Of a DNA stretch of 64,000 bases, positions 1,409 through 53,500 are shown one piece after another. Location of the stretch: contig CAIIXF020000011.1 of NCBI GenBank assembly GCA_903813345.2, forward strand, positions 36,552,166 through 36,616,165, read 5' to 3'. Made by a program: the position numbers and the translations under genes. How positions within the stretch are numbered: position 1 is the stretch's first letter; every line of letters starts with the position of its first letter. This DNA is from Owenia fusiformis (lineage: Eukaryota > Annelida > Polychaeta > Sabellida > Oweniidae). The notes beneath the pieces were generated by a model that saw only the letters and a list, made by a program, of their open reading frames with translations, searched no databases and was not told the DNA's origin.

Positions 1409-1455
1409 ACACCTGACAAAGATCTTCGAATTCGTGGAAGGTTATGACGTATTTT
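1409..1455 (+). repeat. Ninth, interrupted copy of the 108-bp unit
   Basis: cacctgacaaagatcttcg and gtggaaggttatgacgta repeat the exon 1 start, with a few inserted bases. The copy is cut by a MITE at about 1456-1738 and resumes at 1741 with tatacacatatc. The array is therefore older than the MITE insertion. Confidence 0.82.
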
Positions 1456-1738
1456 TACCACCTTGCCGGGCCAGTTCTAGGGGTTTTAGTGCTAGTTTAG
1501 AAGGCGTTCATTTTACTATATCGACCTGAGCAATATGTGACGTCATAGTGGCGGTCAAGAAGGCATTTCAGACCTGTCGAGAATGGATTTAACGACCGGC
1601 AATTTTCTAGATATCGTTCAGATGCGTAAGGTTTTCTTTCTGTTTCATTCCTGGTCGTTAACGGTGGTAATAAAACTAATAACGTCATTTCTGCGCATAA
1701 ATGACGTCATTTCTGCACAGAAATGACGTTATTGTACT
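1456..1738. mobile_element. MITE family A, full copy
   Basis: Starts near accaccttgccgggccag and ends near aatgacgttattgtacta. Related copies lie at 19519-19810 and 38803-38932, and an end fragment at 1-43. It is short, has no coding capacity and carries repeated aatgacgtcatttctgc motifs. Superfamily unassigned. Confidence 0.75.
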
Positions 1739-1740
1739 AT

Positions 1741-2585
1741 TATACACATATCTAATGGGTGACAGCCAGAAGAATGAACTGTACATTACTAAGCTTAATT
1801 TACCTTTCAGGCACCTGACAAAGAACTTGGTGGAAGGCTATGACGTATTATACACATATCTAATGGGTGACAGCCAGAAGAATGAACTGTACATTACTAA
1901 GCTTAATTTACCTTTCAGGCACCTGACAAAGAACTTGGTGGAAGGCTATGACGTATTTTACACATATCTAATGGGTGACAGCCAGAAGAATGAACTGTAC
2001 ATTCCTAAGCTTAATTTACCTTTCAGGCACCTGACAAAGAACTTGGTGGAAGGCTATGACGTATTATACACATATCTAATGGGTGACAGCCAGAAGAATG
2101 AACTGTACATTACTAAGCTTAATTTACCTTTCAGGCACCTGACAAAGATCTTCGTGGAAGGCTATGACGTATTATACACATATCTAATGGGTGACAGCCA
2201 GAAGAATGAACTGTACATTACTAAGCTTAATTTACCTTTCAGGCACCTGACAAAGAACTTGGTGGAAGGCTATGACGTATTATACACATATCTAATGGGT
2301 GACAGCCAGAAGAATGAACTGTACATTACTAAGCTTAATTTACCTTTCAGGCACCTGACAAAGATCTTCGTGGAAGGCTATGACGTATTATACACATATC
2401 TAATGGGTGACAGCCAGAAGAATGAACTGTACATTACTAAGCTTAATTTACCTTTCAGGCACCTGACAAAGATCTTCGTGGAAGGCTATGACGTATTATA
2501 CACATATCTAATGGGTGACAGCAGGAAGAATGAATTGTACATCGCTAAACATATTGAGTTCTTCCAATCCCAGATATCGTACGAG
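1741..2585 (+). repeat. 108-bp tandem array made from the acceptor and body of exon 1, open reading frame throughout
   Basis: Eight copies of a 108-bp unit begin at 1741, 1849, 1957, 2065, 2173, 2281, 2389 and 2497; the last copy is the true exon 1. Each unit joins about 91 nt of exon to about 17 nt of intron end (cttaatttacctttcag). Complete acceptors precede 1811, 1919, 2027, 2135, 2243, 2351 and 2459. The frame of exon 1 is open from 1701 to 2618, so each copy reads GDSQKNELYITKLNLPFR plus HLTKNLVEGYDVLYTYL. Any acceptor would therefore give an in-frame product differing by 36 residues. Confidence 0.93.
2459..2585 (+). CDS. ITPR-like: Exon 1 in window: RIH domain, RKNELYIAKHIEFF block
   Basis: 127 nt, enters in phase 2 and ends in phase 0. 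The acceptor is cctttcag and the donor is gtaaat. It encodes HLTKIFVEGYDVL followed by GDSRKNELYIAKHIEFFQSQ, which aligns with the YRKNQEYIAKQ block of IP3R1 and runs straight into exon 2. This exon is also the last copy of the 108-bp array described separately, so the true 5' end depends on which of seven identical acceptors is used. Confidence 0.88.
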
Positions 2586-5500
2586 GTAAATTTTGAACTA
2601 AATGTCATTCTGAAATAATCCATTGGTCACTTACGCATCACAGCATGTATTCTTTATTTATGATTATGTATAATGTCATAGCATGTCATTTTATATCCTT
2701 TTTTGATTTCTTAACTTCTAAATGTTATACAATAAGTATGTATTCTTATATTCGGAAAGCTTTTCTGGAATGAATTGTTTTCATGTTTTAATACGTTTTT
2801 CCTTTAAATAGAAACAGACTACGCGCATTAATATCATTGTAAGTGTAACATTTGTACCTGGTGTTAATCTTCTCCCTACTTTTCTGGTTATAACTATTTG
2901 ACTGGAATCTCTTGCTAAAATTCAGCATTTCTCTACAATATGTTTGCAATGTGCAGATGTATTTGTATTATCCTAAAAATATTTTCTTTTTTTAGTTTAC
3001 TCTAAAACTATATTTTAGTCTATAGCATGACTGTCTACTTGTATCATTCTGAAATTGACAAACTATTCTCTTATGCTAGTTTATGCTATTATATCTTCAC
3101 TCTTCTTTTCACTCTTCTGTATAAGTTGGGAAAGAGGAAGTCCCTGATGATTACTGATTGAAGCCTGTTTATGTTTTTGGCGTTTGGAATCAAATTATAT
3201 TGCATGTAAGTCCAAACTATTATAATCCAGAAAGACAATTAATATATAAACATCGACAGGATTCGATATGCTATCCAATGCTAGCTCTCCATTGCCAAAC
3301 TTATGGTGGAGAGTATAACTTGTTTCATCATGTTAACGATTCTATTCTTATAATAAAGGCTCTGGATAACTCTTGGAGGAAACAACCATCTGATCCAGAT
3401 TCCCTCAATCCGGTATTTATCATACGTAGGAAAACTTTTTGTTCCAATCAAGGCAAATAGTTAATTTAGAACAAATTGGCTGTAGCAAAGATATGCGACT
3501 AGTGATCGCTATTGAAACGCTGCCACACGGAAATCATGAACGCGTTTGCCATGGTCGGTACAATATATAATTGTTGGTAGATAGTGTGTCCCGTGGTTGA
3601 TACAATGTATCGCTGATGATAAATGCTTATACATATATTGCTATTGTCACTACATCAAGCAATGCTTTCACCTGTATTGTTATACCTGTATGGTAGATAG
3701 CTTGTTAACACACTGTACCATTCCGCTTATTTGATACATATTATGTATAAAGATATAAATTCATGCTTATACATATTGGTAGATAGCGTGTGAACATACT
3801 TACCATTCTGTTTATTTGATACATATTATGTATAAAGACGTAAATTCATGCCTATTATACATATTGGTAGATAGCGTGTGAACATACTTACCATTCTGTT
3901 TATTTGATACATGTTATGTATAAAGACATAAATTCATGCTTATACATATTTGTAGATAGCGTGTGAACATACTTACCATTCCGCTTATTTGATACATATT
4001 ATGTATAAAGACATAAATTCATGCTTATACATATTGGTAGATAGCGTGTGAACATACTTACCATTCTGTTTATTTGATACATATTATGTATAAAGACATA
4101 AATTCATGCCTATTATACATATTGGTAGATAGCGTATGAACATACTTACCATTCCGCTTATTTGATACATATTATGTATAAAGACATAAATTCATGCCTA
4201 TTATACATATTGGTAGATAGCGTGTGAACATACTTACCATTCTGTTTATTTGATACATATTATGTATAAAGATATAAATTCATGCTTATACATATTGGTA
4301 GATAGCGTGTGAACATACTTACCATTCTGTTTATTTGATACATATTATGTATAAATACGTAAATTCATGCCTATTATACATATTGGTAGATAGCGTGTGA
4401 ACATACTTACCATTCCGCTTATTTGATACATATTATGTATAAAGACATAAATTCATGCTTATACATATTGGTAGCGTGTGAACATACTTACCATTCTGTT
4501 TATTTGATACATATTATGTATAAAGACATAAATTCATGCCTATTATACATATTGGTAGATAGCGTGTGAACATACTTACCATTCTGTTTATTTGATACAT
4601 ATTATGTATAAAGATATAAATTCATGCTTATACATATTGGTAGATAGCGTGTGAACATACTTACCATTCTGTTTATTTGATACATATTATGTATAAAGAC
4701 ATAAATTCATGCCTATTATACATATTGGTAGATAGCGTGTGAACATACTTACCATTCATTTTATTTGATACATTTTATGTATAAGACATAAATTCATGCC
4801 TATTATACATATTGGTAGATAGCGTATGAATATACTTACCATTCATTTTATTTGATACATTTTATGTATAAAGACATAAATTCATGCCTATTATACATAT
4901 TGGTAGATAGCGTGTGAACATACTTACCATTCATTTTATTTGATACATGTTATGTATAAAGACGAAAATTCATGCTTATACATATTGGTAGATAGCGTGT
5001 GAACATACTTACCATTCTGTTTATTTGATACATGTTTGTAAAAAGGCATGACGCAATGCTTATACATTTATTGCTATTAGTAGATAGCGTGTGAACATAT
5101 TGTACCATTCTGCTTATTTGATACATGTTTGTATAAAGACATAAATTCATCCTTATACATATTGGTAGATAGCGTGTGAACATACTTTACCATTCTGCTT
5201 ATTTGATACATGTTTGTATAAAGACATAAATTCATGCTTATACATATTGGTAGATAGCGTGTGAACATACAGGGTGTTAAAAAAACCGCAATATACTGGT
5301 TCAATTATTTTCGTATTTTCAGGAAATAAAGAAGAGACTGTGTATTTACAACTCCTGTAAATGGTTAGTTGTAAAACATGATGCCTTGGACAATTGCTCA
5401 AAAGACAGTTGTACTAGGAAAATACGAAAAACACAGTCAGGGGTGACCGAAACCGCAAAAAAATTAAATAACTTCCCAACCATAGTGTTTTGGCTCTTCA

Positions 5501-35500: not shown

Positions 35501-38500
35501 TAACTTTATACAGTTAAATCAATGAAATATACTGAGCATGTCATCATCAAATTGTATGATTTAGACTAGTTATGTTTTTACTCTACATCGTTCGATCTTT
35601 ATCCGACAGTTCATGCATGCAAAGCCAGACTTGGAACTGTACTTCTATTTCATATGTATATGAGTATATTTACATATATAGGTATATACACTCCCCTCCA
35701 TATGTTTGACAACCTTAGCTCCCCCATTGAACTACGTGTAAAAGCCCTTTTACTTTTGAATTTTTATTTACTTAACCTGCGATGGAAATACTTATACTAT
35801 TGATTGAAACGTAATTTGCCCTTATTTCCAATACCTCCAAATTTTAACTTTGAAGCTCTGTAACTTTAGTATTCATTAAGTAAGCTAAACACTTAGTGTA
35901 CAAAAAAGTTACACAATTCAATTTTCGATATATATTTCTATATGCTGAATCTTTTACTGAAGAGATATCCTGATTTCTGATTTCCTCCGAACCCACCTTT
36001 TCCCATTGGTTTACATGGGAATGACGATTTTCAAAAATTCATCAAATTTATCATCAATTTTCGACGTATTTGTAATCGAGGAAAAAGATTGGCAAAATTA
36101 GAGGGTATTGGAAATGAAATCAAGATACGTGTCCATCAATATTATAAGTTATTATATATTATTGCAGGTTAAGTGAATAAAAATTCAAACGTAGAGAGGC
36201 TTTAACACGTATGTCAATGGGGGGGGGGAGCTAAGGTTGCCAAACATATGGAGGGGAGTGTATATGTGTGTGAGACATGAGTTATTTCTAAAGCTGTATG
36301 TGACTAAGTAAAATCTTATTAACTAGACAAGATCCGTGTGTTAATTGCAATTTTGTTACTTCTGATGTAACGAAATGAAACAATATACTAACAAAGGCTA
36401 CTGAAACATTATATTATTTCTTTCAGTTTTTCTATTTTGGTATTTTTCTATTTTAAAAGACCATTTGCATGTGTGCGTCTTCATATTAATTATACAAATG
36501 CATACAAGTTGATTGCCACATTATTATAAGATGAGAGATGTTTATTATACGCATATAGCTGTTCTATATATTCATTTTGTTATGCGACATTATGTTGACA
36601 GCAAAATGAAATAGTATAAGAGCGGTTATTGTTGTTATCTGTCAATATATTCATACAAATGAGTATTATACTTCATAGAATACTCTACTAACTATTTATT
36701 AAGCACTTTAACAACTTTTACTTACCTACAAAATAGGTGTATTATACTTCATATTTACATGTGTTTGAGCTGTTATATTGTTATATGCCATTATATTTAA
36801 TGAAGAAGTGATATATTTTACGTTTACAGGTGATGGAACAGTTCCAAGAGAAGTACGGGGCTGGTTCTGAACAACTTGACATCAGAAGTGATGCCAGGAA
36901 GGTGAATATATAGAATGATTAGTACTAGATTCCAAATACGTGACACTAAGCCTAATTGATCCAAACACAGTCAGGTGTCATAGATACTTGATGAATACTT
37001 TTAATAGAACTTCAAATGTTTGAATAAAATGACCCAAATCTTCCCGCTGGCCAGAAATTCTTTTAAAATCATGCAGTTTTTTTCACCATGCTGTGCATTT
37101 TTCGCATGCTTTTTTCCAAAACTGTCAAAAAAGGCCCCCTTGGCAGCTCTCCTTAGCAAAAACACTCACCCCAGGTAAATCCTGGCTCCGGGCCTGAAAC
37201 ATACGAAGTCTGCAACAAATTATTGATAAATAATGTTTAAATAACTTCATATATTTGAATAAAATGAACTTACTCATAGGCATATGAGGAATACTACCAA
37301 GCAGAAGAAGAACTAAATGTGCAGTTGAACATCTACTCAGTCAACTTCAGTGTTATCTATGGAGGGCCAAATGATGTAAAGACACAGATTTCTTTCCCTA
37401 ATGATATAGGTATGTGATAACTTAACTACTTCATTGTCAATTGTGAGGTGGCGCCATGAGTAATTTTGAAATAAGTTACATTCAATATACTTATAAAATT
37501 CAAACTTCTAATCAATCCCATCATCTATGCTATTTAATTTAATGGAAATATGGAATCAATTTTATTTCACCACCTTGTAGAGTACACTGATGTTAACGGA
37601 AATGAGAAATCAATTTCATTGCCGTTGTTGTTCAGTTTAATGTGATATTTCACTACCTTGTAGAGGGCACTGATGTTTATGAAAATAAGAAATCAATTTC
37701 ATGGCCGTTGCTGTTCAGTTTAATGTGATATTTTACTACCTTGTAGAGGACACTGATGTTAACGGAAATAAGATATTAATTTCATTGCCGTTTTCTGTTC
37801 AGTTAAATGAGATATTGTACTACCTTGTAGAGAACACTGATGTTTATGAAAATAAGGAATCAATTTCTTCCTCTTTGCTGTTCAGTTTAATGTAATATTC
37901 CACTGTCTCATAGCGTACACTAATGTTACTGGAAATTAGGAATCAATTTCATCGCCGTTGCTGTTCAATAAAATGAGATATTGTACTACCTTGTAGAGTG
38001 CACTGATGTTAATGGAAATGTGAAATCAATTTCATGACCGTTGCTGTTCAATAAAATGAGATATTGTACTACCTTGTAGAGTGCACTGATGTTAATGGAA
38101 ATTAAGAATCGATTTCATTATATTTTCTGTTCAGTTTAATGTGGTATTGTACTGCCTTGTAGAGTACACTGATATTGGCGGAAATGAGGAACTCCCATTA
38201 GGACAAGAGTTTCAAGAACACATAAAGTGCTTTGTGAATGATGATAAGACCCCATCACAAAGATACCAACTTGCTGGAAAGCTAGTGGAACAACTCCAGT
38301 AAGTTAGGTTTTTCTTATTCGCCATATAGACTAGCACATTTCCTTCAGTCTAAGTATATAGGACATGTATCAGTGTTTGTTACAAAGAATGACACATATT
38401 ATCTCTTGTTTTAGAATATCAGCTTCCCACACCCAATTGACAGAAAGGGATCGATTAGAACAGCAGATGCTTGACATCAAATCTTTACAGTTGTTGAGAG

Positions 38501-41500
38501 CTTCAATCCACAATGAAATAGTGAGACTACCAGATGACTGGGAGAATGATATCACAAATAACAAAAAGTAGGGAAAATGTAAACCATAATACAACTTCCG
38601 CTGAATAACACAATGGAATATATTACTTGACATTAAAAAATCACCTTGCCATCTCATATTGATACTGGCCACATAGTTAATCTCTCCCAGTTAATAAACT
38701 TTAGAGGTTATTTACCGGGTTGTATCAACTATGGGTTTTATTCCAATGAACAATATGATATTTCGCTAGGGCCCGGAGGGGGAGAGTGAAATATCACATA
38801 TTATTACCACCTTGCCGGGCCACTTCTAGGGGTCTTAGTGCTAGTTTAGAAGGCATTCATTTTAAGTTATAGACCTGAGCAATATGTGAAGTCATAGTGG
38901 TGGTCCATATTGCCGGTCAAGAATGCAATTAATGTCACTATGTTTGAGACAGACCTTCCATACTGAACTGGACTTGAGACTGAGTAACTCTCTTATGAAA
39001 ACAGGGCTGACAAATATCTTAACTTGCTCTAAAATAGGCCTGCAAAAATAGTTCAACTGACACTTGAGCAGTAGAGCCAACAAAAATTTCTAAAAAGCAA
39101 GTCCAATGTACTGTTTATAGAACCCCTATTCTTACTATTGAAATGGATTCTAGTTATACTGTTCCACATAAATCTACTTGTTAAGACTCAATAAATTGAG
39201 TTCTACTGAAAAAAGGGAATTTCAGCAATGGTTAATGACTTTACTTGGGGATACAATTGACTTCAAACATGCATATCATCAAGTAAAGGTTCCATTGCTG
39301 ATCAGGAGGCTCTTCGGATCCAAGAACATGAAACAAGTCTGAATTTGAACATTAATAATGTTTTGAACACAAAAAATCATTCACTGTGTCATTCCTACTT
39401 GAATGCTGACTTGGTACGTTGTTGATTTTACCACCTTTCATAATGGTCATGATTGCTCAGTCATCCGTGGCAGTTACATAATGATCTAAGTACCATTTGA
39501 TTGAAGACAGAATAGGCCTTTTACTGCTAGCACTGCTATCTTCGTATTTTTAAAGCATTGCTCAGAATTGTAGTTGGGTATACTTTTTGTGTCACGCTAT
39601 ACCGACCAAACTGAACGAAATATAAATACTTTGGCTCCCACCCGGAAGCTGAAGGTGTGAGGTTTCATATCCATCCGCCAAAAGGCATGACCCCTATATA
39701 GTCCATTTAAAAATGTGTGACTTCGTTCTAAAAAAACGCCATAGTTGGCTTCTATGGTACCTAATATGCCTTTTTGGTTTCAAAATGAAGAAGAGTTCAA
39801 CTTTCATTTTAATTACGAAAATAGCGATGTAGGTCAAAATAGTTCCAACGTGAGCATGCTAACTACGCGTGCGCCCGTCATCTCAACCAGACTCCCTATA
39901 ATTTGATGTAGATCGATCGAACCCCTATATGAACAAGTACATTTTGATATATAAAACTATGGTGGGGGTAAGCGTTTCATAGTTGGTCACGAACGCCATA
40001 TGTGCAAAGAAGTGTACATAATTTTCGAATTTCGTTTTGGATTACGGTACTCACACCTGAATACAAAATTTGTAAGAGGAATTGAGATGTGAATACGATT
40101 TTAGTGAGAGGGATTAGGAGGAGGGACAATATCACTTGGTTCAATATCAAAAATATTCCACAGTGATATTCACAAGGAAGAAGTAGTATCATACGATATG
40201 TATATATTATTTATATTATAGTTGTGTATTTTATCATACTTAATCGATTGTATCCGAAGCTGTATTTAATTTTGCATTGAAATGGTGTTGAATATTTCAT
40301 TCGCATATTTTACTATGACTACTATTCTATGAATAATTTTTATTGGTCATTTAGGAAACTCAAGAGGATAGAAGAAGCACAGAACGCTCTCAATGAGCAT
40401 GATGCGATATTGAAAGTTCTTCCCCACCTGTCAAAACCAGGGGATGACATCATAAGAGAGGTCCTGGCATTCGTTGCCTGTATGCTGTTTGGTGGAAACA
40501 AAAACGTTCAGGTGAAATATAAGATATCATGTATAGTATTTTTCATATTTTGGAATGCATGCAAAAATGATTATTATTATTAAGGATTTAAGCACTGAAC
40601 TCAATGCTTAGTTTGTAAATATATAACATATCGATTGTTACTCTCTAAAATTATTACCAAGATATTTAAGGAAGGAACGATCCACAAATACCTTTTACTA
40701 ACTAAGCATTGGGTTTGTTGCTTATATCCAATTCACACATGGCAGAATAGTTTTATGAAATAAAATAGATTTCAACTACAGAGGTAGGCCATTTCCATCC
40801 AGTGTCTTGATGGCTGTGTGCATCCTCCCTCTGAGTGATCTAATATTAACTTGTAAGTGCCTAGATATTCAATTTTTAGAACGAAAACAATGAATCAGTT
40901 GAATATACAAATAGGTAGAGTGAACAAGACTGTCAACTTGAAATTATGAAATTGATGATATCTAAAAATAGAGTTTAAGAACTACTAGAAAACTAAAAAT
41001 TAGCCATTATTGGTTGTACATATTATTTGAATTATGATCGACTGAAATTTGATATATGATGTCTGATTATGTGTGGAATATTATTGTATTATGAAACTTC
41101 AGACCCATTTTAAAATAACGCAGACATTTTTATTGTAAAATTGTTAATGCATTAGCTTATAATTTTATTCCAACTATATTTTAATAGTTCTCTATTTTAT
41201 AATGTCAGTCCGCTATATGCTTTCATGAATGTTTTGCTATGAAATGTTTAGTATTTGTGTGCATGGTTAATTGCATTGCTAGGCAAGCATGTGTGACTAT
41301 TTCTATGGAACAAGAGAGGAGAGATTCTTTGCCGCAGTTAAAAATCGTATGAACTTATCTGCAATTGCAACCAAAGAAAAGTAAGTTAACCCAGAAAACT
41401 TTAGTTAGAGGACATTCACTTGTACACAGCATTGTACACACTCAACCTTGCACAGTTCAATCCTTTATTTTTTATAAAACATTTTGCAAGTTGGTGATTT

Positions 41501-44500
41501 TCGGCTATTTTAGAGAGAAATTGTTTCAAAATGGATGTATACACTGCTGTGACGTGGGTGTTCCTGATAACATACCGTTGATGTTGTTCATGATTATGTA
41601 ATAATGTTTTATTCTAGACGAGTATGGTGAATTATTTCTATGGCACTAGAGAGGAGCGATTTTTTGGAGCAGTTAAGAATCGCATTATGTTATCAACGAT
41701 AACAATGAAAGAGAAGTAAAAACATGATTTATACGATGTATATGCTTTCACTTACACATGTCTATTGCCCGTACACGCTCGTTTGATGAGCTACACGTGT
41801 AAAACATGTCCATACGCACTAAAGTACTTGAAAGAGCTTCTCACAATCCAGCTCACAATTTGCCAGTCTTGTTACATGAAAGTTGTTCTATATTCACTAT
41901 GTAATAATTGGTTTCTCTCTAATGTACTTAGCATCTCATATGTTCCTCTTTTGTTTACTTGTATGTATCTCTTGGGGATCAAATATGAAGGGAATGTTTC
42001 GGTCATGTTAAGTGTTCAATTTTAACGCATCAAATAGTGTCATTGTGATGTCGTTTGGCATGTTATCATTCCGTCTCCACTTTTGTTAACTGTTTCAAAT
42101 CATGTGAGGTGTTCGAACTAGCACTTGTCCGTTGATGTGATGTGTTATGTTGGTGCCAATTGTCAAATGTTTCTGCCTCCAGTGGGAGTACTTACACAAG
42201 TTCATATGTCAAGGGAATTATTGAAATCTTCAAGTGTGAACATTTGTTCTGCTATATTTGTTTTTAATAACCGAATGTATTTTAAAATATTCCTGCCTTA
42301 TATCACTAACATACAAGTCAGAGAGCATTATATATAGGACTTTAATATCTCTGAATTAAAAGGTGCAATATATATTCGAAACATGCTACTGTAGAAAAAA
42401 TGTTTGACAAACGATAAGACTAAAAAGTAAAGCAACACAGTGAAATACACTTCCATAGGTTTGTCAACCCCCTTTTCACTTATCAAAGTCATTTTATATT
42501 TGGTAATATTAAAGAGTGTTAAAAAATTAATGTTTTATGGCCACTCAATAGGTTTGTTAGCTAAGATATGATCATTACTGTAAACTCTCATTTACTGGCC
42601 ACTTAATCCTAATGTCTGTTCAATCAGGCCCCCTTTTTGCAAAACTATTTTTTGCAAAATCATTTAGCGTGTCTGTTATTTTTAAAACACGAGCCATAGA
42701 TATACGGCACATGTTGGCGTAAAAACCAAGTGATAAGGGGTAGAGGGGCAAAGTTGATGCCAATGAAATTGAAATTTATAAATTATTGATTGTAACCTTG
42801 CTCTTTAAAATACAAAAAGATGATTATTGTTCTGTTTGAAAGATCAGCATTTAGCATATTGAATTCTAAAAACAGTAAATCGCCAAGTATTCACTAATCG
42901 CGTTCTCTCACGGATTTTAGAGAAAAACATTTTTTCAAGAACTACCCAATAAATATATTCGAATTTTTTGCGTATTTTTTGAATGTCAATACAAACTGTT
43001 GTAATATAAATTATGATGATACCATTTTCCTAATTTTAGATATGATTTTTCATTCTCCCCTACCCCCAATTTTTCAATTTCACTATTTTGATATTCATGC
43101 CGTTGCTAGGTGGTTGCTAGGCAATATCATGGACCGAAATTATATTGGAACAATACCAAGTCATACATTCATTCATCTGTATACCAAATTACTGATTGGT
43201 ATTTGTTTAATATCTTGAAATATGAATGCTAAAGACAAATACAGGTTGAACTTGAAAATGCGGACTATTCAATGTCACGGAAATATCTAAAATGTACACT
43301 CCCTAGGTCACGTTGACCTCGATTTGACCTTTGTTTACCTTCATTTCTTGTAAACCAATAACTCTCCGTAGAGGTAATTGGATAAGGTTTACAACAACAT
43401 TATTACCAACAATATTAAAATCAAAAAAGTAACAATCGCAAGGGGGGTGTTGCGACTCAGTGTTATATAAAAGGTTGAGAACATTTGGGTTAAACTGAAG
43501 GCAGTAAATATCAAATATTTCTTATTGGATGTATTATGATGTCTCTAATGAATCACAACATTCTGTTTGTCATTCCTACACCAACTATACCAGTGTATTA
43601 CTGAAGGAATACATTGGTTTAACAGTATGTTTTTTGTGCCATGCAATAATAAAATCAATTTGCAAACAAAAACATTAAAGATTGAGTGTACATCTATATC
43701 AGAGAGTAAAGAACACAACATACATATTTTCCAGACGGTCACTCATGGCTCAACATCAGGCAAAGATAGACGAGGCAATGGAGCAAGCAAAGGCTTTGAG
43801 GAAAGCTATGAAATCTGGCCAGATAGCAGCACAGGTACTCGCTTAAATAAATATTTCGTGGTTGTAGATTTTTTGGAAAGAAATTGAATTTCTTAACAAA
43901 TACATTTATAGTGCATGGCGGAACTCAAATGTTGTTGAACATTATTTGGGATACTATTGTGTAAATTGTCAAACCATTTGCCAAATTAATATTTGAAATT
44001 AACAGGATACAAAATAAAAACAAAATAACATTAGTCATGACACTGAAACATCGACAGATTTTAAATTTAGAAAAGTACATTTCTTAACATATTTTTCAAC
44101 ACTAAGGCTGTCAAAGAACGATTGGTGAGTCAGTTAAAGTAGAAATTAGTCCAGCTTTAGTTTGTGTCATTCAATGTCCTCCAATTGATACACACTCCTT
44201 AGTGCCATATCATGTGCTTTGTCTTTACATATAATTATAAATAAATGTTAGGTCGTTGCTATTGTAATGAATTGTTTGGTTGGTACATTCCCCTCTATAG
44301 GTTTGGCAACTAGAATTTGATAACATGTTAAAGCTTGTTAATGATTACTTCTTACTCGACTATAGTTCGGAGATTTATGATAAAGTTAATTATGTTTTAA
44401 GCATCATGCATAAGCAAACGATTCAGAAATGGTCATATTGTTGCCAGACTGGAATCAGCATAAAGATAAATAGGTATATAGTGTAAATACACATAGTGCT

Positions 44501-47500
44501 ATACGTGTATGCTCATCATCGTTTGTAACATTCACCGTCTAATAAACCAGACAGAAAGAGGAAATGCATGTAATTATGTTAAACCGATGCTGATGCGAAA
44601 ATTTCACTCAATAGTCAATATATTGTAAAGTTTACCCTGTAACTGAAGATTTGGACCAGAGAAAGGTGACTTAATTTAGACCAGCTTAATAGTTCAGTTC
44701 GCACATGCTACTAATTGATGTAATTTAACTTAAATTACCATCTTGTGAAATCACCTAGAATTGACATCCCTCATAAGATCAAGTACAAAATTTTGTAAAT
44801 GTCCACACATTTAATTATGCTCTCATGTTTAATTAAATATTTATATATACTGTTATAGGAGATATTGGCTGCAAATAAAACTCTAGGCTCTACAATGATA
44901 GGCTCCCGAATGTCAATTGGGAAGCGAAAGGGTGGACTACTTAAACCAGGGACTGTAAGTCGACTACTTATAGTAATATAGTATTTAAAAACAATTATAT
45001 CCTTTCAATTTGCAACAATGCTCTTTTACTCCTTAACTTTTCAAAACAATAAATATATTATAAATTATTCCCAAATACTTCTTTCGTATTTCGTTGTTCT
45101 GTCCTAATAATTTTTCTGCATATATTGCATGTATATACGAGTCTCGTACATACAGTTTAAATGTTGATATTGTGTAGCTCGCAAAAGAATCATATCAATC
45201 AATGTAAGGTGAACGTCAAACTAAACAGAGAAGTATAAGAAAGGATTGTGCAACCCCGTATTGGTTTATATGTGCAAGGCCATAAAGTGGGTATTTGCAA
45301 ATCATGTTTTTCATACACTCTAAATACAATAATTATAATAGTATACAAATCATACATGGTGTTCCAAAAGTAACAGGACTGGTGCTGGCATTTTGTTAAA
45401 TATGCACAAATCGTCTTCAAAATTTTATACAATGTACTTTTATGTATCGTTACTGACACTGCAAAGTTTCAACAAAATATATGAAACCCGGGTAGAGTTA
45501 TGGTTGCTATAGTAATGTGACATATCATTTTGTCCATGCCATATCAAAGTTGAAATGCAACAACTGGTTGGAATTACATTTGTTTTACATCATTTGATAT
45601 TCCTATGTATCCTCTACTTTGAAAAATAGGCACCTCTTTGGTCAGTACAAGAGTAGTTCTCTGTATTCATGACCCAAACACATGAGTGAATCCATTTGAG
45701 GACATGTCACGCAGGGTCAATTGGACAATTTTGAGAAGGTCATTCTCATCTTTAAATGTCTTACAGCACTGATTAGCATTCCGTCCTCAATATGAGTAAA
45801 AATTAGATATTGCATGATCAGAAGAGTATGGTGCATGGGTTTTAGACCTCAAGACCTAGCTCCTCTATAGCTGCATGGTCTTTAAGTGAGACCTGTGCGC
45901 AGGCGTGCTATCTAGATGGATGACTTGCTTCGAATTGGGCCTTTTCAAAAACTCAACCGTGAATTGTTCAGACTGTTATACATTCCAGGAAATTGAATAA
46001 ATATTATGATCATTATGAACTTATACTTGGATCTGAGTTGTATAGCTACATCTTTACAACAAAGCAACTAATGAAATAAACAAGAAATGTTGTATTATAA
46101 TAGGTCAATTAGATACTTTCTTCAGTAATACAAAAATGTTAGATATCACATTTTCAGGAAAAGAATTGCTCCGGGTATTCGGATGTCATGTTACTATAGT
46201 AACCGTAACTCCTACCGCATTTCATCATTTTTTCTGAAACTTAACAATTTCAATTATAATCTTTAAAGGTACAATTTGTGAAAATTTGAAGACACTAGGT
46301 GCAAAATTGACAAAATGCAAGCACCAGTCCTGTTACTTTTGGAACACCTTGTATATGTCATTCTGGAACTAACGAGACTAAGTGAGCTTTAGATATATGA
46401 AGCAAATATTTCTTATGTGAAGGCAACGAAAAAAACATATCCTTGAAGATTCTCGAATATCTAATTATTGCAGTTACAAGACCGATCGGGTAGTAGGTGG
46501 ACTTATAACGTCCTTTGGGATTCTCGAATATCTAAATATTGCAGTCCCAATGCCGATCTGGGAGTAGACTGTCTTATTATTGATAATATCCTTGAAGATT
46601 CTCAAATATCTAATTATTGCAGTTCCAACGCCGATCTGGTTCTAGACGGTCTATTAAATTACTTGAGGATTCTCGAATATCTAATAATTACAGTACCAAG
46701 GCCGATCTGGTAGTAGACTGTCTTATAATAGTCTTGAAGGTTCTAGAGAAATCAAATTATTGCAGTCTCAACGCAGATCTGGGGGTAGACCGTATTATTC
46801 AAAATCATCGAAGATTCTCGAATACCTAATCAACATCTTGTAGTAGACTGTCTTATGATATCCTTGAAGATTCTGGAATATATAATTATTGCAGTCCAAA
46901 GGCCGATGTGGTAGTAGATGATCTTATTATAATATCCTTGAAGATTCTCGAATATCTATTTATTGCAGTCCCAATGCCGGTGTGGTAGTAGATGATCTTA
47001 TTATAATTTCCTTGAAGATTCCCGAATATCTAATTAGTGCAGTCCCAATGCTGATCTTGTAGTAGACAATCTTATTATAATTTCCTTGAAGATTCTCGAA
47101 AAATCAAATTATTGCAATTCCGAGGGCGATCTGGAAGTAGACTGTCTTATTATAATTTCCTTGAAGATTCTCGAATATCTATTTTTTGAGGTAGACTCTC
47201 TTATGATATCCGTTTCTCGAAAATCAAATTATTGCAGTTCCTTGGCCGATCAGGGAGTAGACTGTCTTATTCAAATATCCTTGAAGATTCTCGAATCTAA
47301 AATTATTGCAGTCCCAAGGAAGACGATCTGGTAGTAGACTCTCTTCTCGTGATCCACGAAAACACCTGGGTGGAACTTCTAATATGTTACCCGACATGCC
47401 ATCTATGACAAAAGGTCATATCAGAGGTCACACTCCAATGAGTAAACAATCGCCACGTATTGATAGGCCCCAAAGCGTATTTGCTACGCCAGGGTTATGT

Positions 47501-50500: not shown

Positions 50501-53500
50501 AATTACGACATGAAACATGTTTACCTCAATAGATGCCGAGACGCCAAGTGGCATCGAACTGGTTCCCATTCAGAAACAAGAGAGGACTCTTTCCAAAAAC
50601 AAAGTAGGACCGATGAGTGAGGTAGACTTGAAAGAAGATGATGACGACGATGCTGAGCTACAACAGTTAGCATCAATGCTGGTTGGTGAGATGGATGATC
50701 TTGATTATAAGGACGAGGGATATATAGAACTTGTTCTCAGAGTGCTGGCGTTTATGTGTGATGGTCAAAACGCGGAGATCCAAGTAAGAGCATGCTAGTT
50801 GTTAAATTCTGGAAAACTCAATCACAGAAAGCATGGTTATTTTGTAAAATATGTCGTATATCTTGCTATTCAATTTGAAATCTTATTTTAGAACTATCTC
50901 AGGGAACAGCCAGACAACATTAAGTCGTTCAATCTTGTGGCTGAGACTGCCCGGTTCTTAAGTCTCCTTTATTCCAACATCAATGCCAATACAATAGGCC
51001 TTGTGACTCAGCTCTTCAATACACTTGTGGAATTCACATCGGTGAGTTATTTTAATGATCTTTTTCACTGTGCCAGTATATCAAATAATAACGCGTTTGT
51101 CACCAGCTGTGTAGCCTTGCCCAAGACGGTCTCTTTTACTTATCTTGATTTCTATTATGACCGCCTTGTACCAAAGAGAAAGCCACGTGCTTTACCGACA
51201 GTTTGTTGATGTCGGTAAAATTTGACCAATCAACGACGGCCCTGTAGCGTTAGCTCATTATTATGCACGGTCAAAAACAAGTACACTTTTCACCGGGACT
51301 TTTCACGAACAAATCTTGCACGAATCTGAGCACGAATTCATCATGAAAATACAAATATTTTATCAGATAAATATCAATGAGAGTTTAGTGGATGCCCGGG
51401 CATCGATCGGATAACCAAAGGTGAGAAGATTTCAACAATAAACGTTGAAACGATCGCTGAACATGTAGACTGAGATTCAATCACCGATCGACGACAACAT
51501 GACCCGCTACATTCAGCCTGAAGTCACACGTCGTGTCCACGCGATATCTGTCAATCAATAAGGTTTCGTGATACCCCTGATAGCGTAGGTATTATGCGGA
51601 AATCTCGAAACCGTTGAATATTTCAGCATAATAACAGCGGAGATGTATTGGATTGTACAAGGCGGTAATAATTCAAGATCAGATAAGTAAAAAATACCGA
51701 CTTGGGCAAGGCTACCAGCTGTGAAGAACATGTACATACAGATGCGAGCAATAATGAAACTTTCCGTCTCAACTGATATTACACGGACTCAGAATCACTA
51801 AATTGGCATTCCTGAGACTAGAGACCCGATTATGTCTGGATTCTTCAAAAGTGTTAATGATCATTCGATATATGTATATAAATTCCGAGCAAGAAAATCA
51901 TACTCTAAGTGTAAACCCGTAATAAGAAGAATAGACCACCTTACCCCCAACCATGATCTAAGTTGAAAATAAACAATGCCTAATACAACCCCTCCCCTAA
52001 TCGTACTCAAAACTCAAAAAGTAATAGAGCGATTTTGTTGATATTTGATATGTTAATTATCATAAGCATGGGACACTGTCTTATGACACTCAGTCTATTG
52101 AGTACCATGTACGTGTGTGCGAATTTGTGGAAATTTTATCTGTGCCTACTTAGAAGCATATTACACTTTCTTACAATTTGGCTAGTAGTGATTGACCATT
52201 TTGAAAATGATGGCCATATTATTTTAGTTATTTTCAATTTTACAAGCTGAAAGGGTAGTAAAAGGATTATTTTAAAATGGCAGTAATTGTTGTTCTGTAT
52301 GATTGGCTACGCCTTGGCATTGCTGCTATCTAGTTTCATCATTCAATCTACATGAAATTCATTCTAATCCTCAATTAATTCATTCCTTTCAGATAAAACA
52401 AACCAGATATAAATTACTTGATAAGTTTTTGTGCTTCCTGAGGTAAAAGAACATCACTATCAACATAACGTATTCAATTAACAATATATATTTTAATTAG
52501 ATAACCTCGTTAAAACTGAAATCAGTAAGCCGTGTCTGGTTGCAGATTTATTGCAAAATATGTATCTTCGGTCAAAATGGACCCCAAAAACTCTAGAAGG
52601 TGTAAAAATTAAAAAAACGATGAAGAAAATAAAGTAGTTTTTTTCTTTTTTCAGGGCAATATCTACAATCAGGCGATTGTGTTCGATAATAAAGTTTGTG
52701 ATTATATAAATTTTATATTGCGAAGCTCTTCTTTCCAAGGATGCACTGCTGGAGAGGTGAGGACTGTTTCATGATTTACATGTTAATAGTACAAGCATTT
52801 GATAGAATGAATGTTGTAGTAAGTCGGTGCTATATGTAGCTAAGCAAAACATCACAAAACATAACTGAACATTTAACGATAGCTAGTTTTTAATTATGTT
52901 ATAGATATTAGAGCTTAAACAAGCTATTGTGACACTTATCAAATCTCTAACAGAGGAAAATACAAAGATATCAAAGGATGTGCCAGCTAAATCACCAACA
53001 CAGAAAGTAAGTGAAATATTATATATTTATTTAAGTGTATATGTGGATTTCTTTGTGTATGAAATAAGCTAAAGATACACATAAGTAAAATACATATCAA
53101 GTATATATACATGCAGTATACATCATTTTGTAAAAAAATAGTTTCATGTGAAACAATCTAAACATGTATGCACATTTCAATTTAACTGAAATATATTTAA
53201 GAGAAAAATAGTATTTATTTTATATAAGTATTGTGCAATATCTTGATGAAATATGCTTGTGACACATTTGCTTAATTATTATTCATGACAACTAAAGGAC
53301 TTTACAACATTTATAAGTATATCCATGATCATAGTTTACATCACAAAGCTTTTGATAAAAAAAACTACATTTGAATTTATATTACTCTACCAGGACATGC
53401 AACACCTCTCTATCGATGCTAAGGTAGAACTTTATTTGCTTAACTTATGACTCCTTTCATATCACCGTGGTCTTGGGACAGATATATAACGGTTACATTA

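Follow-up and report, generated by a model that had tools for sequence, protein, structure and literature searches.

An exon-boundary minisatellite with seven identical splice acceptors in an IP3 receptor-like gene of the annelid Owenia fusiformis

In an IP3 receptor (IP3R)-like gene of O. fusiformis, a segment spanning the junction between an intron and the exon that follows it was found to be repeated in tandem with a period of 108 bp. This array is best read as a mirage, a class of exon-boundary minisatellite known from amphioxus, which on this sequence comparison would extend beyond the cephalochordates to an annelid. We consider it probable that the feature is a mirage minisatellite seeded at the exon boundary, of which the last copy, at 2459, is the one most likely to be spliced. 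Positions refer to the window, i.e., the whole stretch of 64,000 nt that was analysed (C11:36552166-36616165 of a 498-Mb genome, single haplotype), unless another sequence is named, and a slash within a sequence marks a splice site.

Tandem-repeat detection showed the array to consist of 7.5 copies with 98% matches and no indels (Table 1). Its copies fall into eight registers with a spacing of exactly 108 bp, and this regularity is far beyond chance. An identical acceptor, ctaagcttaatttacctttcag/g, was found seven times, with last bases at 1810, 1918, 2026, 2134, 2242, 2350, and 2458 and with acceptor-exon junctions at 1811, 1919, 2027, 2135, 2243, 2351, and 2459. The intron end of approximately 18 nt within the unit reads cttaatttacctttcag and is followed by the first base of the exon, and a candidate branch point, ttactaag, is present in every copy. 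Comparison with the adjoining authentic exon showed that the unit spans the exon boundary (alignment score 170 vs. 44 for the best shuffle). The tandem amplification of an exon with its 3′ splice site, as described in the original prediction, was confirmed with regard to the array, but the unit is not a whole exon: it contains neither the 3′ end of the exon nor a donor, and the full 127-nt exon and its donor are reached by the last copy only. Besides, of the eight acceptor-bearing copies that had been proposed, only seven bear an acceptor, the fragment at 1409-1452 being without one. The dispersed repeat that splits this outermost copy has a second copy upstream (L023:9708-9954). The array thus shows the features by which mirages are recognized: a tandem cluster, high internal identity, a diverged copy at the edge, and splice signals that are kept.

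Table 1. Features of the 108-bp array and of related exon-boundary arrays (window positions unless a sequence is named).
Feature	Position	Strand	Gene or location	Remarks
108-bp tandem array (exon-boundary minisatellite, "mirage")	1738-2542	+	Window gene	Last copy continues into the real exon
Six complete 108-bp units	1811-2458	+	Window gene	Each ~90 nt of exon start and ~18 nt of intron end, acceptor 3′-terminal
Open frame spanning array and exon	1701-2618	+	Window gene	305 codons
Left half of outermost array copy	1409-1452	+	Window gene	44-nt exon-start fragment; 6-bp insertion; acceptor absent in front
Dispersed repeat, ~280 bp	1453-1736	+	Window gene	Splits outermost array copy; about 40 further copies detected in the genome, most of them 85-91% alike
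Authentic RIH-domain exon, HLTKIFVEGYDVLYTYLMGDSRKNELYIAKHIEFFQSQISYE	2459-2585	+	Window gene	Phase 2 start; donor GAG/gtaaat at 2586; from alignment to paralogues and PDB IP3R and open spliced frame
Second array, 83-bp acceptor and exon-start unit, x7.2	37572-38173	+	Window gene	Before exon 38163-38298
Probable third array, ~74-bp unit, attattgcag acceptor and exon start	46437-47188	+	Window gene	Before presumed exon ~47311; by eye
93-bp arrays from MIR exon start, 24.3 and 10.4 copies	C11:36539523-36541774; 36542769-36543734		Intron before MIR exon
56-bp acceptor array, x5			P11
73-bp acceptor (x2.7) and 40-bp donor (x4.9) arrays	C11:36761797-36762302	-	P36	Flank one exon and derive from its own boundaries
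21-bp donor array, x18.9, CTCAAAG/GTAAGC...	C11:3199556-3199950		P3	Open, divisible by three
32-bp donor array			P11
106-bp acceptor and exon-start unit, x11.9	C8:32139923-32141183		Conserved RyR gene	98% alike
33-bp donor array at C5:7151623-7151863			Canonical IP3R

The IP3R-like nature of the window gene was borne out by a domain search, which detected RIH (E = 9.8e-30), MIR (2e-11), and RIH-associated (4e-12) domains, and by the best matches among solved structures in the PDB, which were IP3 receptors (IP3R1, E = 5.7e-32). Three paralogues were found, all on C11 (P11 at ~11.82 Mb, P3 at ~3.20 Mb, and P36 at ~36.77 Mb on the minus strand), and this C11 family is separate from canonical IP3R (C5, L008) and RyR (C8). 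Approximately 38 exons of the window gene, almost all of them open, were shown to be conserved with the paralogues over ~69 kb; they were followed over a span that begins 16 kb upstream of the first window position and reaches position 52762. Since conserved exons are present on both sides, the exon at 2459-2585 is internal, and the earlier view that it is exon 1 was mistaken, at least eight conserved exons lying further upstream, beyond the window. Judged from its sequence, the window gene looks alive. Two near-identical tandem exons were also observed in the window (41286-41381, SMCDYFYGTREERFFAAVKNRMNLSAIATKEK; 41618-41716, TSMVNYFYGTREERFFGAVKNRIMLSTITMKEK), and these may form a mutually exclusive pair.

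The 5′ half of the interrupted exon was located as a 59-nt mini-exon at C11:36550697-36550755, 3.9 kb upstream of 2459 (ttatttcag/ATCGTGGAGC...GATCAAAC/gtaagc; translation IVELLVKLLQIPYRHSPDQ plus two bases). Its donor, AAAC/gtaagc, is in phase 2 and is an exact fit to the acceptor cag/G CAC CTG, and the junction with 2459 yields ...SPDQT-HLTKIF..., which aligns with the paralogues and with IP3R1. Because of this phase 2 donor, all seven acceptors give an in-phase, open protein, with an exon of 127, 235, 343, 451, 559, 667, or 775 nt. Thus, the original prediction was right that zero to six blocks of 36 residues could be added without a frameshift and that the frame is open from 1701 to 2618, and its idea survived the check on the phase of the upstream exon, which suits all seven acceptors and not just one. 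Two other readings of the sequence around the exon were considered. Reading tttacctttcag as ordinary coding sequence, with a phase-0 donor before the exon and with reference to the paralogues that have no intron there, was ruled out by the 59-nt phase 2 half-exon. When the 83 nt before the 1409 fragment (1330-1412) were compared with the 5′ half-exon, of which they might be a decayed copy, the similarity was not significant, since 324 of 1000 shuffles scored as well.

In P11, P3, and P36, the exon was found to be unbroken at the site of the array-bearing intron (IIDLLVKLLKTDLRTAHDQG-HLTRVFKEGYDV..., phase 0 start), and the canonical IP3R exon on C5 is likewise continuous through this site. In this comparison within one genome, the intron is present in only one of the four C11 paralogues. 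As the site is uninterrupted in the three paralogues and in canonical IP3R, the intron is most simply explained as gained, and it is probably a recent gain in the window-gene paralogue. The array is located at the 3′ end of this intron, in agreement with the mirage model, under which new introns should contain mirage repeats. Under intron gain by tandem duplication (the Rogers and mirage models), both splice sites of the new intron would come from duplicated exon sequence; such sequence was seen at the 3′ end, as the array, whereas the 83 nt before the 1409 fragment gave no significant match. The same intron contains a 727-bp foldback element (L023 8671-9397), of which about 40 other copies with 97-99% identity were found; this element looks recently active.

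We propose that the array was seeded by a segment that began ~18 nt before the end of the intron, where it took in the pyrimidine tract and AG, closely preceded by the candidate branch point, and that reached ~90 nt into the exon. After a tandem duplication of this segment, unequal exchange would have amplified and homogenised the copies. The mini-exon is most likely spliced to 2459, and the remaining copies would stay intronic; 2459 is favoured because a normal 127-nt exon adjoining its donor results. The acceptor sequence is essentially alike in all seven copies, and 2459 is distinct only by its position and by the 3′ part of the exon, which differs from all copies at columns 65, 66, 77, 85, 86, and 91. 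If one of the upstream acceptors were chosen by error, in-frame blocks of 36 residues would be added and the mRNA would not be killed, a matter of luck in that 108 equals 3 x 36 and that the intron tail happens to be free of stops.

Four columns of the array were shown to be variable, and all four changes are non-synonymous (P = 0.37 without constraint). Stop codons are absent from the copies, but such an absence is expected when no more than four sites vary (P about 0.79), so that the openness of the array is uninformative on its use. At positions where the real exon and the paralogues agree, the array copies depart from SRKN to SQKN and, in four out of six copies, from IF to NL. An AlphaFold model of the open frame, a low-confidence beta-solenoid obtained from a single repetitive sequence, contradicts the all-helical RIH fold and was set aside as uninformative.

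About 11 exon-boundary arrays were found in all, across the window gene, its paralogues, RyR, and IP3R (Table 1). Among the acceptor arrays with units of 93, 56, 106, 83, and 73 bp, all upstream acceptors that were tested led to a premature stop in the frame of the exon, and only the last one was open. The unit length is a multiple of three in 4 out of 11 arrays, which matches chance, and the in-frame length of 108 bp is therefore unremarkable. The variable protein length that had been suggested for the window gene is unsupported. Late donor use in the 21-bp array of P3 would insert 7-residue repeats. When units were matched to homology-defined exon boundaries in the four C11 genes, 9 out of 35 arrays scored far above shuffles compared to 3.0 expected for random seeds, the nine including a doubtful dispersed repeat (P11 29193), a mostly intronic 16-bp repeat (P36 16730), and two arrays sharing a unit; three further boundary arrays were identified by eye. 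The excess over random seeds is mild at most. When the positions of whole arrays were permuted relative to the exons, no excess was seen (12 observed vs. 13.4 expected), in a poor test, as its null allows long arrays to lie over exons. The mild excess would fit a repeat-rich genome in which minisatellites arise at any place and those at splice sites are tolerated.

These data bear on a different reading, in which the exon begins at 1811-2351 in a substantial share of the mRNAs and the first RIH domain of the resulting isoforms is longer by one to six 36-residue blocks. We find this unlikely, since common upstream use in the sister arrays of the same family would truncate their products and since the variable sites of the array are all non-synonymous and fall at conserved residues, although the seven identical acceptors match the phase of the upstream donor, are open to the exon end, and are each provided with a candidate branch point of their own. 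Exons of 235-775 nt would also mostly exceed the others of the family seen here (roughly 60-325 nt). Among known cases, human exon-boundary repeats commonly give transcripts that retain the repeat (PMC2812944), whereas the amphioxus mirages are spliced normally. It is highly improbable that the array is always translated as one long constitutive exon with an acceptor in or before the 1811 copy: splicing of the mini-exon to 2459 reproduces the paralogues' junction with HLT exactly, ~216 extra residues would fall inside a compact helical domain, and there is no signal of selection. In favour of such an exon are the openness of the whole array and an acceptor-like cacag at ~1718-1722, ahead of the open frame. 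That the window gene is a decaying pseudogene in which the array is of no consequence is hardly credible given its conserved, almost entirely open exons and its RIH, MIR, and RIH-associated domain scores, even if copies and introns are filled with repeats and the protein is only distantly IP3R-like.

The boundary-seeded mirage that we favour has its closest counterparts in amphioxus, where minisatellite-like duplications across an intron-exon boundary were described in Adh3, the globins BflGb6 and BflGb9, PGBD5, and TnC (PMC3087553, PMC3902484). Regular splicing was reported to be undisturbed by the Adh3, globin, and TnC mirages (PMC3087553, PMC3902484), and no aberrant mRNAs were found for the PGBD5 mirages of 60 and 108 bp and another one in TnC (PMC3902484). 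The O. fusiformis arrays share with these the duplication of an acceptor- or donor-side boundary, a retained AG or GT, and a unit size between tens of bp and ~160 bp (PGBD5 having one of 108 bp), as well as high identity within the cluster and an odd copy at its edge; a link to newly gained introns has been proposed in amphioxus. They differ in the annelid host, whose genome has 12 large scaffolds of 32-62 Mb, fewer than the chromosomes of amphioxus, and encodes the erythrocruorin-linker domains typical of annelids, and in that the unit of the window array is open and in phase, making all its acceptors translatable. Furthermore, the gained intron of the window array is large and contains a foldback element. 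Among human segmental-duplication paralogues, a tandem repeat at an exon boundary accompanied by a novel intron was found in one paralogue, and two thirds of such repeat-driven intron changes also show a transcript that retains the repeat (PMC2812944). The window array resembles these in combining a boundary repeat with a probably novel intron in one paralogue, but the human repeats sit within exons and have transcripts. A 1995 minisatellite study of human IFI6 (6-16/G1P3) reportedly described multiple splice donor sites, several of which are actually used. In both genes, the edge of an exon bears a short tandem repeat with several splice sites that are equivalent, but these are on the donor side in IFI6, where use of multiple sites is said to have been shown, and on the acceptor side in the window array. 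The window gene shares MIR, RIH, and RIH-associated domains with the IP3R/RyR family, but unlike canonical IP3R (C5) and RyR (C8) it belongs to a divergent C11 paralogue family. The literature searched yielded no report of exon-boundary arrays from an annelid.

It seems rather doubtful, on sequence grounds, that the array serves as a ladder of in-phase 3′ splice sites by which individuals or tissues would vary by zero to six blocks, and that its newly gained intron would at the same time exemplify intron birth in annelids via boundary minisatellites. The presence of about 11 arrays in one gene family as well as in RyR and IP3R of an annelid suggests that boundary minisatellites may be a general by-product of minisatellite birth. 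Such arrays would constitute natural tests of how the spliceosome chooses among identical acceptors and of the origin of new introns from arrays.
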